A stretch of 51,512 bases of DNA from a virus: positions 1-51,512 of IMG/VR virus record IMGVR_UViG_3300032722_000030; one strand, given 5' to 3'. A program made the translations under genes and the position numbers. Within the stretch, counting starts at the first letter, position 1, and each line of letters starts with the position of its first letter. Under the pieces are notes generated by a model. That model did no database searches, was not told the origin of the DNA, and was given only the letters and a program-made list of their open reading frames with translations. Below, piece by piece: positions 10,291 through 37,458 of this stretch.

Positions 10291-10980
10291 ATGATAGTTT
10301 ATTTTGTTAAGAACATTGTGAACGGCAAAGGTTATGTGGGTGTGACAGAGCGTTCACTAGTTGATCGTTGGAAGGAACATGTCGATGCGGCTCGGCACGG
10401 GAGTACGCTGATCTTTCATCGTGCGATCAGGAAACACGGTCATTGCTCATTCGACGTCAGCGTGATCGAACAATGTGAGACTGAGAATGAGTTAGCTTCT
10501 GTAGAGATCAGGTTGATCGAAGAAAAGCAGACGTTCGCATATGATCATCCGAACACAGGTTACAATATGACCCGCGGCGGGGACGGTATTCACGGGTACA
10601 AACACACTGATGCGAAGCGTCGGATGAGTATCGCTCGTAAGGGAAAGAAGCTACCTCCTAGGTCAAAAGAGTATCGACTGCACATGTCTATCGCAAAGAA
10701 AGGCACGGGTACAGGGCCAAATCTTGATGCTCGTGGCTGGCATCACATCAGAGAGTCAAAAGAGAAGATTTCTGAGGTGCTTCGACAAAGGGTACGAAAA
10801 ACACGATCTGTGATACAGTATGACATGAACAGGAATGTGTTGGCTACTTATACATCAGCGAAATTAGCGGCGAGGGTGGTGAATGGTCATGACGCTCGTA
10901 TCGGCGATTGTTGCCGTGGTTCACGAGATACTCACGCAGGTTTCAAATGGTCGTACGCAGAGCAAAAAGGGTTACGGTGA
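10291..10980 (+). CDS. GIY-YIG homing endonuclease, free-standing (SegA-like)
   Basis: A 229-aa site-specific nuclease of the GIY-YIG family inserted between two virion genes. The catalytic module is at residues 1-95: VYFVKN then GKGYVGVTE (the GIY and YIG strands), R26/W27 after the second strand, and the family's E within the later helix, closing with NTGYNMTRGG. Residues about 108-130 (HTDAKRRMSIARKGKKLP) and a second similar segment are NUMOD3-type DNA-binding repeats. Residues about 172-222 (VIQYDMNRNVLATYTSAKLA and CCRGSRDTHAGFKW) are a NUMOD1-type helix-turn-helix module. It probably spreads its own gene by cutting intron-less relatives. It has its own candidate promoter and leader upstream, and the next virion gene follows 3 nt after its stop. 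Confidence 0.93.
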   Translation: MIVYFVKNIVNGKGYVGVTERSLVDRWKEHVDAARHGSTLIFHRAIRKHGHCSFDVSVIEQCETENELASVEIRLIEEKQTFAYDHPNTGYNMTRGGDGIHGYKHTDAKRRMSIARKGKKLPPRSKEYRLHMSIAKKGTGTGPNLDARGWHHIRESKEKISEVLRQRVRKTRSVIQYDMNRNVLATYTSAKLAARVVNGHDARIGDCCRGSRDTHAGFKWSYAEQKGLR

Positions 10981-24144: not shown

Positions 24145-27100
24145 ATGGCAAAACGAGAACCGAAGAGTCTATTCCGTCGTCTTACGCGCCTGTTTCGTAG
24201 CGGCCCGATCGTCAAAAGAAAGATCCGTGCCCTAGACACGACGATAGCTGTTGCCGATAAGACGAAGTCTTCAGGCACGTTGCTCTTCCAAAAGTCATTG
24301 TCGCCGACGTATGCGACGATCACGAGCAACGCATATAACCTGAGCGAGCGCTTGATGAGGTATCAGGATTTTCAAGAGATGGAGTATTCGGTTGCGATCT
24401 CCACACTCATCGCCACTCCCGACGGTTTCAAGACCATCGGTGAGTTGGCCGAAGCGTGTGCGTCCAACCCCGACCACACCTTCATCGTCTATTCCTACGA
24501 CCACAATCTAGGACGCATCGTCCCCGCTTTCGGCAAGCAGGCCCGTCAGACCTGTGTCGACCATGCCTGGAAGGTGACCTTCGACAACGGGAAGACGATC
24601 ACCGCGAATCCAGAGCATCGATTGATGCTACGCGACGGGTCATATCGTCGCGTTGAGGACCTGCAGCCCGGAGATGCAATGATGCCCTTCTACCGGAAGG
24701 ACCTGTTCGTCGGCGCTGAAGAAGGCACCAAGGGCTACTCGTGGGTCTACACGATGGACGATAGGTTCCGTGGTTGGACCAAGGAACACCAGTTGGTGGC
24801 CGAGTGGGTGGCCGGCCGGCAGCTGACGGAGGACGAGTGCGTCCACCACATCAACTTCGTGAAGACCGACAACAGACCCGAAAACCTGCGGATCATGACG
24901 AAGAGCGACCACAATTCGTACCATGCCGCCATCAACAACGGTGCGAAGTGGGGACCGGAGAACCACGAGTGGGTCGAGGAATTCAAGAAGAACCATGCAG
25001 CCTGGATGCGAGACAACGCACCGACGGCCCGTCGCGACGTGACATTCGCACGGATCCTAGAGACAGCTGAACGCGTCGGCTTCAGCATGCCCGCTATCGC
25101 TCTTGCGCTAGACGTTACGTGGAACCTGATCTACGAACGTTTGGTGGCGCACGGGTTCGCTACCTTCGATGGGTTCGTCAAGGCCTATGCAGGTGGACAG
25201 ATCTTTGCCAACCTTCCCGAGGGACGTCCCGGGTTGTTGACGCGAGACCTGAGCCTGGAGCTGCTCAGGTCGAACATGACTTCTGAGGACACCAAGAGGT
25301 CGCTGTGCATCAAGCTCGGTTGCACTGTCAACGTCCTCGACAAGTTCTTGGCCCGTCGAGCTCAGACATCGTGGTCCGAGCTTCGTTCTTCGTTGGGTTA
25401 TTCTGACGGTTCAGTGACCGTTTCTCACGTCAAGAGCGTTCGAAAAGGTGGTCGTCCTAGGGGCGCCAACGGCAACGACCTGACCTTCCAGCAGATCTGT
25501 GACGCGTACGAGCCTAAGCTGACGATGCCTCGTCTCGCTGAGAAGCTCGATGTCAACAAGAACACCGTCATCTCACGTCTGGCACAGAACGGTTTCAAGA
25601 GGTTCAGCGACTTCCAGGCAACGTACGACAACTGCAAGGTCGTCTCTGTCGAGTACGTGGGCGAGATGCCGCTCTATGACCTGACAGTCGATGGCTACAA
25701 GAACTTCGCGACCGACAGCGTGGTGTCTCACAACACTCCTGAGATCGCGGCAGCCCTTGACATCTACGCTGACGAGACATGTGCGCAGGACGAGAAGGGT
25801 CGCATCATCCACGTCTACTCAGACAACGAGAAAATTCGTGAGGTGCTTGAGGACCTGTTCTATAACATCCTCAACGTCGAATTTCAGATGCGCTCCTGGG
25901 CAAGGAACCTGCCCGTCCGAAAAGACAGCGTCATCCCCTTGCTCGATGGCAGGAACATCACCATCGAACAGTTAGCGCGGGAGCACGAAAAAGGCAAGGA
26001 GAACTGGGTCTACAGCGTCCAGGACGGCACCCATCGAATGGTCCCGGGTAAGGTCAGCTGGTGTGGGCTGACACGGAAGGACAGCGAGCTCGTCAGGGTC
26101 TGGTTGGACGACGGGACGTACGTTGATTGCACGCCGGACCACGAGTGGGTGATGCGAGATGGTCAACACAAGCGTGCTGATCAGCTAGTGCACGGTGAAA
26201 GCTTGATGCCGCTCTATCGTCAAGCGGCCATGATGGGGGGTAAGAAGGGTTATGAACGTGTGTACGACCCTGAAAGCATGCAGTATCGGTATACCCATCG
26301 GCTGATGGTCCAACACCGGTGGACTAAGGCTGATGTAGGCAAGGTTGTTCATCATGTGAACTGCAATCGAAGCGACAACACGCCGACAAATTTGAAGGTG
26401 ATGACGCAAGTCGATCACATCGACCTTCATCGAAAGATGGCGTCTTCTTACAACTCTTCACCGAAACACAAGTTGGATAATGTCCAACGTTCCGCCGTGA
26501 TGAAGAAAATGTGGGCTGATCCGGCTAAGAAGCAGTTGGCCAAAGAGAACATGGCCATCAAGTTCGACCAGCGCTGCGTCGACATGGTCGTCGAGCGACT
26601 CGCGGCCCACGGAAAGTACGTCAGTCCGAAGGTGTTGGGCGACCAATTGAAGTCAGACGATGTCTTCATGGGCCATCTCAAGGCCATCAATGAAGGCACC
26701 AAACGTGACCTGACGAAGTCTTTCAACTCGCACACCGGCTTCGAGGCGCTCCTGCAGAAGGCTGGCGTCGGGTCGTACCTTGATCTGGTCCGTGACAGGT
26801 TGCCGGCGATCGCATCGACGCCATGGTTCCACCGTGCGGAGAAGAAGAGCGCCAAGATGACGGGCGTCGTCCCTGCGATGCGGAACGCCCACCCGTCTGT
26901 GAAGGCAACCTACAAGAACCACAAGGTCGACCGCGTTGAACGGCTGGCGGAGACCGACGACGCCTACTGTATGGAGGTGTTGGGACCGAACGGGGAGCAC
27001 GATAGGCACCGGTTTGGCATCATGTGTTATACAGGTGATGGTCAAGTATCAAAAAGCTCAATCATATCAACTAATTGTAAGTACGGAGATTTTTTTCTTT

Positions 27101-28794
27101 ACAATGACGTCTCACCAGAGTATGGCGTTGTCAATGCCTTCCCAATCCCGGTAAATGAGATCGAGCGAGAAGAGAACTACGATCGCGACGATCCGTTCGC
27201 TGTCCGTTACCGGTGGGTCACTCTCGGTAATAGGACGCTGGAGAACTGGGAAGTCACCCACTTTCGCCTGTTGGGCAACGACATGTTCTTGCCTTACGGG
27301 TCTTCTATCATCGAGCCCGCAAGGCGCATCTGGCGCCAGCTGATCCTGATCGAGGACGCGATGCTTGTTTACCGCGTTGTTAGGGCACCGGAACGCCGCG
27401 TCTTCTACATTGATGTTGCAAACGTGCCGCCTTCAGAAGTACCGCAGTACATCGAACAGCAACGTCAGCAACTTCACACAGCTCCCGTCATCGATAGGCA
27501 GACCGGCCGAGTTGACGTACGCTACAATCCAATGTCGGTTGAGGAAGACTACTACATCGCAGTCCGCGGTGGTGAGAGTGGCACGAAGATCGATACCCTC
27601 AAGGGAGGCGAGAACACTGCATCTGTTGAGGACGTTGCGTACATTCAGAAGAAGCTCTTCGCTGCACTAAAGATTCCTCGTGCATATCTGGGCTATGATG
27701 AGATGCTCAGCAGCAAGGCAACGCTTGCACAGGAGGACATTCGTTTCAGCAGGACGATCAACGTCATTCAGAAGACGATGATGGCTGAGCTCAACAAGAT
27801 GGCGATCATCCATCTGTTTGCACACGGTTATGACAATGAGGACTTGCAGAACTTCACGCTGCGCCTCAGCAATCCTTCAACTGTCGCACAACAGCAGAAG
27901 CTCGAGCTCTGGCGCGCAAAGTTCGAGATTGCAGGCACATCACCAGAAGGGCTTGTCGATAAGCAGTTCATTCGCAAGGAGATCATGGGCCTCAATGAGG
28001 AACAGATCAAAGAGATTGACGATCGACGAATGGCGGAGAAGAAGGTCGACGCAGCGATTGAGGCTGTCGGCGGCGAAGCTGCCGGTGGCGCAGCGGGTGG
28101 TGGTGAAGATCTCTTTGGTGGCGGAGGAGGCGAAGAGCTCGGTGGTGGAGAGGCAGGAGGAGAAGCGCCTCCACCCGAAGAAAATGCCGGCGAGGAGCCT
28201 GAAGAGAAGGACGATGGTCTTCAGCTCATCACAGGCGGTGATGATGCCGCTGACGATGAATCTTTTTCTCTGAAGCTTGGCGAGATTGATGCCGATGAGA
28301 AACCTGTGAAGCCACAATCGCAGCTCGATCGTTACCTTTACAATAACGGCCGCCGCCGCACGCATGGTGCTAGCAAGACTCACATGCCTGACTTCAACAA
28401 GATGACTAAGCTCACCGCGAAGGATGGACACTCAACCGAGGATCCGTATGACGGTGATTGGTTCAGATCAGTTGTGAGCGATCCTCTCGGTGAAGGCACG
28501 CGCCACACCTGGCGCTCTCCAAACATGAAGCTTCCTCCTGACATTGTTTCAGCAATCAGGCACATGACTGAGGCATGGGGACGTGCCCGAGAGAAGCAAG
28601 AGATCGAACAAGGTACTGTGAATGTGCTGAGCGAAGGTAAGGACGTACAGGAAGAGATCGATCGGTCGGGCTACGACTACTTGAACATCGATCTTTCTGA
28701 AACATCACATGATTCTGACGATCTGCTCACTGAAGGTGGGCTAGATATAGACGAGGACTCGTCATACGACGAGGAAGACGAGGACGACGAATGA
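24145..28794 (+). CDS. Portal protein (gp20-like) precursor with two inteins
   Basis: A 1549-aa precursor; removing the two inteins leaves a 712-aa portal. Extein parts are residues 1-81, 531-589 and 978-1549. They join as QDFQEMEY/TPEIAAALDIYADE and SWARNL/CKYGDFFLYNDV, both typical portal sequence. Further portal signatures are FPIPVNEIEREENYD, LLGNDMFLPYGSSIIEPARR, YRVVRAPERRVFYIDV and SSKATLAQEDIRFSRTI. The portal forms the 12-fold ring at one head vertex through which terminase packs DNA. The C-terminal ~230 residues (Gly/Glu-rich from about 1305, then acidic) exceed T4 gp20 and may be a phage-specific extension. The ATG has GGAGAGG upstream; the stop overlaps the next start. Confidence 0.95.
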   Translation: MAKREPKSLFRRLTRLFRSGPIVKRKIRALDTTIAVADKTKSSGTLLFQKSLSPTYATITSNAYNLSERLMRYQDFQEMEYSVAISTLIATPDGFKTIGELAEACASNPDHTFIVYSYDHNLGRIVPAFGKQARQTCVDHAWKVTFDNGKTITANPEHRLMLRDGSYRRVEDLQPGDAMMPFYRKDLFVGAEEGTKGYSWVYTMDDRFRGWTKEHQLVAEWVAGRQLTEDECVHHINFVKTDNRPENLRIMTKSDHNSYHAAINNGAKWGPENHEWVEEFKKNHAAWMRDNAPTARRDVTFARILETAERVGFSMPAIALALDVTWNLIYERLVAHGFATFDGFVKAYAGGQIFANLPEGRPGLLTRDLSLELLRSNMTSEDTKRSLCIKLGCTVNVLDKFLARRAQTSWSELRSSLGYSDGSVTVSHVKSVRKGGRPRGANGNDLTFQQICDAYEPKLTMPRLAEKLDVNKNTVISRLAQNGFKRFSDFQATYDNCKVVSVEYVGEMPLYDLTVDGYKNFATDSVVSHNTPEIAAALDIYADETCAQDEKGRIIHVYSDNEKIREVLEDLFYNILNVEFQMRSWARNLPVRKDSVIPLLDGRNITIEQLAREHEKGKENWVYSVQDGTHRMVPGKVSWCGLTRKDSELVRVWLDDGTYVDCTPDHEWVMRDGQHKRADQLVHGESLMPLYRQAAMMGGKKGYERVYDPESMQYRYTHRLMVQHRWTKADVGKVVHHVNCNRSDNTPTNLKVMTQVDHIDLHRKMASSYNSSPKHKLDNVQRSAVMKKMWADPAKKQLAKENMAIKFDQRCVDMVVERLAAHGKYVSPKVLGDQLKSDDVFMGHLKAINEGTKRDLTKSFNSHTGFEALLQKAGVGSYLDLVRDRLPAIASTPWFHRAEKKSAKMTGVVPAMRNAHPSVKATYKNHKVDRVERLAETDDAYCMEVLGPNGEHDRHRFGIMCYTGDGQVSKSSIISTNCKYGDFFLYNDVSPEYGVVNAFPIPVNEIEREENYDRDDPFAVRYRWVTLGNRTLENWEVTHFRLLGNDMFLPYGSSIIEPARRIWRQLILIEDAMLVYRVVRAPERRVFYIDVANVPPSEVPQYIEQQRQQLHTAPVIDRQTGRVDVRYNPMSVEEDYYIAVRGGESGTKIDTLKGGENTASVEDVAYIQKKLFAALKIPRAYLGYDEMLSSKATLAQEDIRFSRTINVIQKTMMAELNKMAIIHLFAHGYDNEDLQNFTLRLSNPSTVAQQQKLELWRAKFEIAGTSPEGLVDKQFIRKEIMGLNEEQIKEIDDRRMAEKKVDAAIEAVGGEAAGGAAGGGEDLFGGGGGEELGGGEAGGEAPPPEENAGEEPEEKDDGLQLITGGDDAADDESFSLKLGEIDADEKPVKPQSQLDRYLYNNGRRRTHGASKTHMPDFNKMTKLTAKDGHSTEDPYDGDWFRSVVSDPLGEGTRHTWRSPNMKLPPDIVSAIRHMTEAWGRAREKQEIEQGTVNVLSEGKDVQEEIDRSGYDYLNIDLSETSHDSDDLLTEGGLDIDEDSSYDEEDEDDE
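24388..25734 (+). mobile_element. Intein 1 in portal gene (class 1, HNH endonuclease)
   Basis: A 449-aa in-frame intein, portal residues 82-530. Block A starts with Ser1: SVAISTLIATPDGFKTIGEL. Block B is TANPEHRLMLRDG, block F is MPLYDLTVDG, and block G ends VVSHN with Thr as the +1 extein residue: canonical class 1 chemistry. An HNH homing nuclease lies near residues 232-260 of the precursor (VHHINFVKTDNRPENLRIMT). The nuclease is followed by three helix-turn-helix-like segments, each with a 'LA..L.V..N.I..RL...GF..F..F' pattern, probably for target recognition. The element splices itself out of the protein and can home into intein-less portal genes. Confidence 0.93.
25912..27075 (+). mobile_element. 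Intein 2 in portal gene (class-3-like, Pro1, HNH endonuclease)
   Basis: A 388-aa intein, portal residues 590-977. Block A begins with Pro instead of Cys/Ser: PVRKDSVIPLLDGRNITIEQ. Block B TPDHEW has Trp two residues after the His, and block F has Cys in place of the usual Asp (AYCMEV). These are the W and C of the class 3 'WCT' set. The C-terminus is ISTN followed by Cys+1, with Ser at the G:5 position usually held by Thr and Thr replacing the penultimate His. An HNH nuclease is at about 734-760 (VHHVNCNRSDNTPTNLKVMT). Ends were set by restoring continuous portal sequence (ARNL/CKYGDFF). Confidence 0.88.
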
Positions 28795-30766: not shown

Positions 30767-31378
30767 ATGTATCTGATCTATTGTCATACTAATCGCATCG
30801 ATGGCATGCGTTATGTAGGTTACACTAAACAAACGATGATGCAACGATGGGCTGGACATGTTTGTGATGCAATCAAACATGGGCATACGAATTGTTTTGC
30901 AATTGCGATTCGTGAGCATGGTCCTGATGCATTTGATCATGATGTAATTTGCGATGGCATCTTTGACGTCAAGGACGCCAAACATCTTGAGCGTCATTTC
31001 ATTGAAATGCTAGGCACGTGTGGTCCATTGGGTTACAATATGACACGATGTGGGAATGGTTCGGGTCCTAAGTCTGTCCGGACTAGACAGCTCATTTCTG
31101 AGAGAACGTGCGAGGCGATGTCAAAGATTGATCCTTCGTGGAAAGATCGTCAACGAGAAGCATTGAAGGATCCTTTAACACGTCAAAAGATTTCTGAGCG
31201 AACAATTGAAGCGATGCATGAACCTGAACGTTATGCTGTATTCAAGGAACAGATGTCGACGCCAGAGAGAAGAAAAATGATCTCTGAGCGAACTCATGCA
31301 GCAATGCATCGACCCGAAGTGAGAGAGAGACAACTAGCTGGGATTGAGGCAAGAAAGCAAAAGAGATCTAATGCTTGA
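30767..31378 (+). CDS. GIY-YIG homing endonuclease, free-standing, second copy
   Basis: A 203-aa nuclease. The GIY-YIG module (residues 1-95) shows YLIYCHTNRIDGMRYVGYTK, R27 in QRWAGH, and GPLGYNMTRCGNG. Residues 105-200 carry at least three copies of an ISERTxEAM-type repeat (QLISERTCEAM, QKISERTIEAM, KMISERTHAAM), which look like NUMOD3 DNA-binding units. It lies between the head gene at 30314 and peptide deformylase, and its last codons overlap the deformylase start. Codons are more AT-rich than in neighbours, which points to recent arrival. TATACT is 5 nt before its ATG. Confidence 0.92.
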   Translation: MYLIYCHTNRIDGMRYVGYTKQTMMQRWAGHVCDAIKHGHTNCFAIAIREHGPDAFDHDVICDGIFDVKDAKHLERHFIEMLGTCGPLGYNMTRCGNGSGPKSVRTRQLISERTCEAMSKIDPSWKDRQREALKDPLTRQKISERTIEAMHEPERYAVFKEQMSTPERRKMISERTHAAMHRPEVRERQLAGIEARKQKRSNA

Positions 31379-35535: not shown

Positions 35536-37458
35536 ATGAAGTTCTTCACAATGGAACAGCTCGCCTCCGGCATCAAGGAGAGGCACGTCGGCGCAGAACG
35601 CGCTCGGCTGGTTGAGAAGTGGAGCCGCACCGGCTTGCTTCGTGGTCTCGATGGCTTCAAGCGCGAGACAATGGCTCAGCTGCTCGAGAACCAGGCAGCT
35701 CAGGTCCTCAAGGAGTCTAACTCCTTGTCGACAGGCGGCGCAAACGTCGCCTCATCTGGTCAGATCCAAGGCTTCTCGAACATCGCGTTCCCGATTGTCC
35801 GCAGGGTCTTCGGTGGCCTCGTTGCGAACGAGCTCGTCTCGATCCAACCGATGTCGCTCCCCTCGGGCCTGATCTTCTACCTCGATTACACCTACGGCAG
35901 CAACGTCGGTGGAAACGCAGGCGATGATCTCAGTGCAGGTGCGACCCAGTCGACCTACACCTCGGGACAGTCAATCTACAACAACCCGGTCGGTCGCGGA
36001 ATCCAGTCAGGATCGCTTGCCACGGGTGGTATGTACGACCTCGTGAACGTTGGCTACACCAAGGTTCACACGGGAAGTGCTGTTGCGGTGACCATCTCGC
36101 AGGTCGGTGCCTTCGCCGGCGCCAACGGTGCATTCACATCGGGCAGCATCGTCGCAACGTACAGCGACTTCTCCGGGACCAACGCTCGCATGCTGAGCTT
36201 CGATCCTCAGATCGACACCGACCTCTCGCAGGGTCTGTACAGCGTCCAGTTCGTCCACCTCAATGTCACCGACATTGCCAGCGCAATCCCGGCCGGCGAC
36301 GTCATGGCAGTCGAGGAGATTGCATTGTTCGGTCTCGCTTCAAGCGCGAACAACGCTGCTGCAGGAACGTTCACCAACGGCGACCTCGTCGCATGGAACC
36401 AGAACTATCAGGGCGGCACAGGCGTCCTCAACCTCCGTCGCCTCAACAAGCGCGGAAATCTGTCGGCAGGCGTCTTCACGCCGAGCCCGCTCAACGGAAC
36501 GCAGGTCCAGCTCGTCTGTCAGGTTTCGCCTGCTGGCGGATTTGGCCCGGCCGGTTCTTGGTGCTTCCTCTCGATGGCACTCGCTGACGGCCTTGTCGCT
36601 GGGGACGCCACCGGCGCAACCCTGACGATCCCGTCCTTCGAGTCTGACTTCTCGGTCACGCCGTCACCGGCGATCCCTGAGATCGACATCAAGATCGAGG
36701 CAATCTCGATCACCGCAACGACCCGCAAGCTCCGCGCTCGCTGGTCTCCCGAGCTTGCACAGGACCTCAATGCGTACCACTCGATGGACGCAGAGGTCGA
36801 GCTGACGAGCATCCTCTCGGAGCAGATTGCTCTCGAGATCGACCGCGAGATCTTGAACGACCTCGTGACCCAGGCGAACGGCGCTCAGATGTACTGGAGC
36901 CGCGCCCCGGGCAAGTTCATCAACAAGCTGACCGGTCAGCCGATCGTGCTCAACACTGCGCTGTCCATCGGACCGAACTTCACAGGCACCGTCCGTGAGT
37001 GGTATGAGACACTCATCGAGACGATCATCGACACGGCGAACACGATTCACCGCAAGACGCTCCGCGGCTCCGCGAACTTCCTGGTCACGTCCCCCGACGT
37101 TTCCACGATCCTCGAGGCATCGGTGCTCTACAAGCCGAAGTTCTCCATCGACGGCGAGGGTCAGCTGGGAAGCCCCTTCACCATCGGTGCAGAGGCGATC
37201 GGTACCCTCAGCAACCGCTTCACGGTCTACAAGGACCCGTACTTCCCGAGGAACCGCATCCTCGTCGGGTACAAGGGCGGCAGCTACCTCGAGACGGGTT
37301 ACGTGTACAGCCCCTACGTGCCCCTGATCGTCACCCCGACGATCTTCGCGCCGGAAGACTTCACACCCCGTAAGGGCGTGATGACCCGCTACGGCAAGAA
37401 GATGGTCCGCTCGGACTTCTACGGCGTCGTCACGATCCTCGACATGAACATCATCTGA
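35536..37458 (+). CDS. Major capsid protein (gp23-like)
   Basis: A 640-aa capsid protein of the T4 gp23 family (HK97 fold). Signatures: AFPIVRRVFGGLVANELVSI and QPMSLPSGLIFYLDYTYGS near residues 95-125, then ARWSPELAQDLNAYHSMDAE, NGAQMYWSRAPGKFINKLTG, RKTLRGSANFLVTSPDVSTI and the closing RKGVMTRYGKKMVRSDFYGV. A prohead-protease site (L-x-E) at LKE60 before SNSLSTGG fits removal of a 60-residue propeptide. Codons are GC-biased compared with neighbours, as expected for high expression. The TACTTAA box and AGGAG are upstream, and a stable hairpin follows. Confidence 0.96.
   Translation: MKFFTMEQLASGIKERHVGAERARLVEKWSRTGLLRGLDGFKRETMAQLLENQAAQVLKESNSLSTGGANVASSGQIQGFSNIAFPIVRRVFGGLVANELVSIQPMSLPSGLIFYLDYTYGSNVGGNAGDDLSAGATQSTYTSGQSIYNNPVGRGIQSGSLATGGMYDLVNVGYTKVHTGSAVAVTISQVGAFAGANGAFTSGSIVATYSDFSGTNARMLSFDPQIDTDLSQGLYSVQFVHLNVTDIASAIPAGDVMAVEEIALFGLASSANNAAAGTFTNGDLVAWNQNYQGGTGVLNLRRLNKRGNLSAGVFTPSPLNGTQVQLVCQVSPAGGFGPAGSWCFLSMALADGLVAGDATGATLTIPSFESDFSVTPSPAIPEIDIKIEAISITATTRKLRARWSPELAQDLNAYHSMDAEVELTSILSEQIALEIDREILNDLVTQANGAQMYWSRAPGKFINKLTGQPIVLNTALSIGPNFTGTVREWYETLIETIIDTANTIHRKTLRGSANFLVTSPDVSTILEASVLYKPKFSIDGEGQLGSPFTIGAEAIGTLSNRFTVYKDPYFPRNRILVGYKGGSYLETGYVYSPYVPLIVTPTIFAPEDFTPRKGVMTRYGKKMVRSDFYGVVTILDMNII

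Follow-up and report, generated by a model that had tools for sequence, protein, structure and literature searches.

A Pro1 intein with a block F cysteine in a T4-like portal gene, and the portal intein family to which it belongs

The portal gene and its two inteins

The DNA analysed here, referred to as the window, is a stretch of 51 512 nucleotides covering positions 1 to 51 512 of the viral record IMGVR_UViG_3300032722_000030 (IMG/VR). On its plus strand, positions 24145-28794 (1549 codons) encode a T4-like portal protein, a homologue of gp20, whose gene is host to two inteins. When both are removed in silico, a 712-residue protein is left that matches the Pfam profile Portal_T4 in one stretch (profile positions 4-431 of 433; 251.9 bits), compared with positions 155-431 and 233.3 bits for the unspliced protein; the host gene is thus a T4-like portal gene. 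The type of phage is confirmed by a Gp23-family major capsid protein (35536-37458) and other T4-like head genes. Elsewhere in the window, several large open reading frames (ORFs) of 419-1453 aa between 1437 and 15954 have no Pfam match, and two free-standing ORFs (10291-10980 and 30767-31378) resemble homing endonucleases, one matching PHROG homing endonucleases and the other GIY-YIG.

The upstream intein, intein 1 (24388-25734, plus strand; 449 aa), is an ordinary class 1 intein at the site EMEY↓TPEIAAALD (the arrow marks a splice junction), with Ser1, Asp at block F position 4 (F:4), a C-terminal HN↓T and an HNH insert; it was not part of the preliminary description of this locus. Intein 2 (25912-27075, plus strand), a Pro1/Cys F:4 intein of 388 codons inserted in frame, is the subject of this report.

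Anatomy and junctions of intein 2

Intein 2 begins with Pro1 (codon CCC, 25912-25914) in place of Cys or Ser and ends with Asn388 (27073-27075); its C terminus reads SSIISTN↓C, the Cys being residue +1 (27076-27078) of the following CKYGDFF. Both ends lie exactly where the preliminary description had placed them, and they are fixed by orthologues with an empty insertion site, which were found for all three of the portal sites described below. At the site of intein 2 (site A), such portals read W(T/V/I/A)RN(L/M)(C/V)KYGD or close variants, for example WTRNLCKYGDF in L018 and WIRSLCKYGDY in L014, which gives the junctions RNL↓P...N↓CKYGD. The alternative that Pro is an extein residue is ruled out by the same orthologues, which read RN(L/M)(C/V)KYGD with no Pro; Pro is therefore intein residue 1, Cys is residue +1, and the N-terminal scissile bond is Leu-Pro. 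The +1 residue at site A is Cys in every intein-bearing portal and Cys or Val (in one case Leu) in the empty orthologues, a pattern consistent with either a requirement for a nucleophile or a preference of homing for certain sites.

The conserved blocks of an intein are readily recognised. Block B (TPDHEW, 26131-26148) provides Thr74 (B:7), His77 (B:10) and Trp79 (B:12), and block F (AYCMEV) has Cys353 at position 4 (26968-26970), the proposed first nucleophile, and His366 at position 13 (27007-27009), which may stand in for His G:6 in assisting Asn cyclisation (by analogy with PMC5050341). Block G consists of Ser386 (G:5), Thr (G:6) and Asn (G:7) at 27067-27075. In addition, a Cys outside the known motifs, Cys51 in VPGKVSWCG (26062-26064), attracts attention for its conservation in relatives, and an HNH homing-endonuclease motif (HNH_3; Pfam, 1.9e-7) lies inside the intein at 26287-26409. 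Scored alone, intein 2 reaches 39.4 bits against the Pfam model Intein_splicing (cut-off 35.8), in addition to HNH_3.

At the DNA level, the last 22 codons of intein 2 (27010-27075) are AT-shifted beyond the codon usage of the gene itself (z -3.9). Several close relatives have an AT-shifted 3' end as well, most strongly L051 (z -6.2) on a contig with 65% GC, and near-identical junction DNA (AGTAGYGGAATT...CAAATTG) is common to some relatives of intein 2. A swapped 3' end or a constraint at the DNA level are both possible explanations of the AT shift.

Predicted fold

The AlphaFold2 model of intein 2, computed from an input with ten family members, has a mean pLDDT of 84, rising above 90 over residues 1-30 and 341-360. 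A PDB profile search returned only weak intein matches and BamA artefacts, and fold comparison (Foldseek and VIA-align) was used in its place. The model matches known inteins from residue 1 to residue 388 with the termini aligned, at Z scores of 20.7 for NrdJ-1, 19.4 for Ssp DnaB, 19.4 for Mtu RecA, 17.3 for the class 3 Msm DnaB and 16.8 for AceL NrdHF; class 1 and class 3 structures are thus both matched, and the Z scores of this model alone assign no intein class. In the predicted fold, the HINT splicing domain is complete and holds an HNH insert. With this fold, blocks A, B, F and G, a terminal Asn, a +1 nucleophile and an in-frame insertion, as found by Pfam, the fold search and the empty sites, 25912-27075 is a real intein.

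BIL structures are also among the fold matches, and these, together with the odd C terminus, would fit a degenerate or BIL-like domain that cleaves instead of splicing and leaves portal fragments. Such an outcome seems most improbable, as the +1 nucleophile and the terminal Asn or Gln are kept across the whole family described below, the catalytic residues are kept in diverse relatives, the reading frame is intact, and the host gene is normally essential for T4-like heads.

A family of Pro1 inteins at three portal sites

Scans of viral contigs recovered the same insertion in other viruses along with many relatives, and removal of near copies left 58 distinct Pro1 inteins at three sites of T4-like portals: site A (RN↓CKYGD), site B (YNP(L/M)↓S(V/I)DEDYF and equivalents) and site C (LPGGQF↓TGDIDD). 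Pro1, Cys51, His B:10, Cys F:4 and His F:13 are each present in all 58. The terminal residue is Asn in 57 and Gln in one (L053, FMFQ↓SVDEDYF), and residue +1 is always Ser, Cys or Thr (28, 25 and 5 inteins, respectively). Since Pro1, His77, Cys353, His366 and the terminal Asn recur in 58 diverse relatives, the design of intein 2 is more than chance. Moreover, the scans that yielded most of the relatives used N-terminal patterns containing neither Pro1 nor Cys F:4, so the invariance of these two residues was not selected for. The invariance of Cys51 is partly a matter of ascertainment, because the largest scan used two patterns, one of them with WCG; members first found in an earlier scan also keep Cys51.

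These counts bear directly on how intein 2 had been characterised from its sequence alone. The lack of a nucleophile at position 1 is borne out as a family trait, and the suggestion that the block F Cys acts as the first nucleophile now appears likely. On the other hand, the pair of block B Trp and block F Cys had been taken as diagnostic of class 3, which the counts do not bear out: Trp B:12 occurs in only 7 of the 58 inteins, every one at site A, Phe being found in 34, and it also occurs in 5 of 60 class 1 inteins, mostly from portals. The departure of the C terminus from class 3 was correctly seen, but it is a rule of the family and not a local oddity, with Thr G:5 and His G:6 both at 0/58 and Ser at G:6 in 15. 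Residue B:7 is Ala in 42 members and Thr in 14.

The family includes mini-inteins of ~157-173 aa (L086, L097 and L018). A search of a cultured-phage collection found no close relative, and one relative comes from a bacterial metagenome-assembled genome: L131 (NVTD01000053.1), a Pro1/Cys F:4 portal intein binned as Candidatus Wolfebacteria, whose contig is probably phage or prophage. As far as seen in these sequences, the Pro1/Cys F:4 family is large and confined to three sites in T4-like portals. The preliminary description named no portal example, which was incomplete inasmuch as inteins, of one class or another, have been reported in mycobacteriophage portals (PMC5050341). T4-like portal inteins of the Pro1/Cys F:4 kind were not found in the open-access papers searched, and the family is apparently undescribed.

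Relationship to class 3 and class 1 inteins

Class 1 inteins have Cys, Ser or Thr at position 1, where intein 2 has Pro, and it is likewise no class 2 (KlbA) intein, its F:4 being Cys and its host gene a portal gene. Under a loose definition of class 3, which asks for Cys at F:4 and a residue other than Cys at position 1 (PMC7891396), Pro1 and Cys353 place it in that class by sequence. Under the strict WCT definition (PMC3196547), Trp B:12 is present (Trp79) and Thr G:5 is replaced by Ser386; the strict label thus fails at G:5, and the Trp is incidental to the Pro1 family. Class 3 inteins such as MP-Be DnaB, MchDnaB1, Msm DnaBi1, Dra Snf2 and Bvi IcmO share with intein 2 the lack of Cys or Ser at position 1, Cys F:4, His B:10, a terminal Asn, the HINT fold, a predicted two-branch mechanism and, for the window copy, Trp B:12. 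In contrast to them, the Pro1 family lacks Thr G:5 and His G:6, does not have Trp as a family trait, has invariant Pro1 and Cys51, and carries HNH rather than LAGLIDADG. The split class 3 intein AceL NrdHF (PDB 6zgq; PMC7891396), probably phage-borne, provides a precedent, with a Cys F:4 mechanism, a broken WCT motif and no His G:6, but it has Ala1 and Met B:12, keeps Thr G:5, has lost His F:13, is naturally split and shows 10% structural identity to intein 2.

For the wider comparison, 16 classical class 3 inteins were taken from the genomes of phages. A 71-residue class 3 query served purely as bait, and the sequences it matched, 6rix and 6bs8 among them, come from databases. Cys F:4, Thr G:5 and His G:6 are present in all 16 and Trp B:12 in 15, with position 1 variable. 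BLAST between the Pro1 family and this set stays at noise level (E ~0.1 or worse), whereas against class 1 portal inteins E values reach 1e-94. Hence these comparisons give intein 2 no specific kinship with class 3 inteins of the mycobacteriophage DnaB type; Cys F:4 and Trp B:12 are shared, and Thr G:5 and His G:6 are absent. Profile scores are 340 for the Pro1 family with near class 1 inteins, 292 with other class 1, 93 for other class 1 with class 3, and 42 for the Pro1 family with class 3, which runs opposite to the expectation from exclusive kinship of the Pro1 family and class 3.

Trees built without the trait columns resolve two clades, one of class 3 inteins (100/99) and one that unites the Pro1 family with L056 and L104 (100/94). 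In reduced sets, the Pro1 family groups with the near class 1 inteins of portals with support of 99/97 and 95/81, and in the full set this grouping is weaker (81/76). A tree constrained to unite class 3 with the Pro1 family is worse by 2 to 7 log units. AU tests of this joint clade in three taxon samples gave p values of 0.43, 0.065 and 0.39 and did not reject it, owing to the great length of the class 3 branch. As these tests never reached rejection, a separate origin of the Pro1 family from class 3 is favoured by the sequences rather than proven. The class-3-like label originally given to intein 2 thus survives in the loose sense, whereas the best trees do not make it an aberrant member of the classical WCT clade.

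Class 3 inteins, of which 1701 are known in nr (PMC7891396), have been attributed to one event that gave rise to a monophyletic group (PMC3196547, PMC4031507). It may be argued that intein 2 is a divergent member of that clade which lost Thr G:5 and His G:6. The window copy does have both Trp B:12 and Cys F:4, the shared clade survives the AU tests, and AceL NrdHF shows that class 3 tolerates the loss of W and of His G:6 (PMC7891396). We nevertheless regard this reading as unlikely: the Trp, limited to 7 of 58 inteins at one site, was probably gained locally, the best trees and profile scores put the family with class 1 portal inteins, and the insert is HNH, compared with LAGLIDADG in 82.5% of class 3 inteins (PMC7891396).

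The class 1 relatives are close in several ways. The portal inteins L051, L005, L023 and L024 resemble the Pro1 family in HNH architecture, in full-length identity of up to 43% and in having Cys F:4 in all four, and L051, L005 and L023 share insertion site B with Pro1 inteins; they differ in having Cys1, Ala at position 51 and Thr B:7. More broadly, class 1 inteins that combine Cys1 with Cys F:4 (e.g. L023, L025, L026, L051 and L005) occupy site B, the position of Pro1 inteins in other viruses, and BLAST aligns L058 (Pro1) with L051 (Cys1) at this site with 43% identity over 387 aa (1e-94). In both L051 and L005, one protein carries two such inteins, of the Pro1 kind at site A and of the Cys1/Cys F:4 kind at site B. 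At site A, L056 and L104 have Cys1 (TGC and TGT), Cys51 and Cys F:4 and group with five Pro1 inteins; their Cys1 may be a reversion instead of an ancestral state, and a Pro1-only clade without them is not rejected (p 0.175). A portal ORF on the same contig as L005 and L010, L028, contains five inteins in one portal gene. Its third intein ends in WILLHN and directly abuts the fourth, so the shared Cys would be residue +1 of the third and residue 1 of the fourth; the fourth ends in Gln (SFQ↓SVEEDFF).

A proposed splicing route

The best explanation of these observations, and one that we hold to be probable, is that intein 2 is a mobile, splicing-competent intein that follows a class-3-like route and belongs to a Pro1/Cys F:4 lineage derived from class 1 portal inteins separately from class 3. 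Cys353, aided by His77, would attack the Leu-Pro1 bond to form a branched thioester at block F, from which the N-extein would be transferred to Cys+1. Asn388 would then cyclise with the help of His366 or another residue, a helper being needed because G:6 is not His, and a final S-N shift would join ...RNL to CKYGD..., giving the ligated portal peptide ...SWARNLCKYGDFFLYNDVSPEYGVVN....

This order of attack by Cys F:4, transfer to +1, Asn cyclisation and acyl shift has been shown for other class 3 inteins (PMC5222942). As of 2016, Bvi IcmO was the one class 3 intein known to have Cys+1 (PMC5222942). Loss of His G:6 has precedents in AceL NrdHF (PMC7891396) and KlbA (PMC4031507), many mycobacteriophage class 1 inteins also lack it and a block F His may substitute (PMC5050341), and mutation of Thr G:5 can have little effect (PMC5222942). 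Nevertheless, a lineage without Thr G:5 and His G:6 and mostly without Trp B:12 and Thr B:7 could splice slowly or partially. That Pro1 never varies points to a role for the prolyl bond as such, which perhaps supplies strain where Thr B:7 has been lost.

Two other assignments of the first nucleophile deserve consideration. Cys+1 could attack the Leu-Pro bond directly, with Cys F:4 assisting as Asp F:4 does in KlbA. The non-nucleophilic residue 1, the Cys+1 at site A and the Ser G:6 of 15 of the 58 inteins, a KlbA trait (PMC4031507), all fit this class 2-like route. It seems quite improbable to us, as 33 of the 58 have Ser or Thr at +1 and yet F:4 is Cys, not Asp, in every one, and only KlbA orthologues have been reported as class 2 inteins (PMC4031507), in the literature a group with Asp F:4, direct attack by Cys+1 and an archaeal host gene. 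It is also highly improbable, though conceivable, that the role of first acyl acceptor falls to Cys51 instead of Cys353, or that the two form a redox-controlled pair, which would make a different mechanistic class. Among the Cys residues that lie beyond the known motifs, Cys51 alone is invariant (58/58, and 2/2 in the Cys1 members L056 and L104); it is Ala in most class 1 kin and aligns with the His of the 'WH' in a DnaE intein. However, in other families it is Cys F:4 that has been proven to be the class 3 nucleophile, Cys51 persists even in both Cys1 members, and its invariance is in part that of the search pattern.

As for the spread and origin of the class-3-like intein proposed here, we infer that its HNH domain moves it between portal genes, and the most likely ancestors of the Pro1 family are class 1 portal inteins in which F:4 was already Cys. 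A structural study considered it unlikely that class 3 evolved directly from class 1 (PMC7664689). As the closest relatives of the Pro1 family use the ordinary mechanism, block-F-Cys chemistry may have arisen more than once.

Implications

A bolder proposal would set the Pro1 family apart as a separate mechanistic class, in which block-F-Cys splicing evolved a second time, from class 1 portal inteins, with the aid of prolyl strain and with Cys51 as a relay nucleophile or redox lock. We think this rather doubtful; if true, the Cys1/Cys F:4 inteins L056 and L104 would be natural dual-nucleophile forms.

The family shows that a design of Cys F:4 and a non-nucleophilic residue 1 does not have to go together with Trp B:12, Thr G:5 or His G:6. 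The mini-inteins L086, L097 and L018 are handy test objects and possible tools, and the family as a whole takes Ser, Thr or Cys at +1. The main value lies in the family itself, in which the two arrangements of the nucleophile occur at common sites of the portal, a fact that bears on whether class 3 arose once: with Pro1/Cys F:4, Cys1/Cys F:4 and ordinary Cys1 relatives at these sites, the switch of the first nucleophile can be tested with natural sequences.
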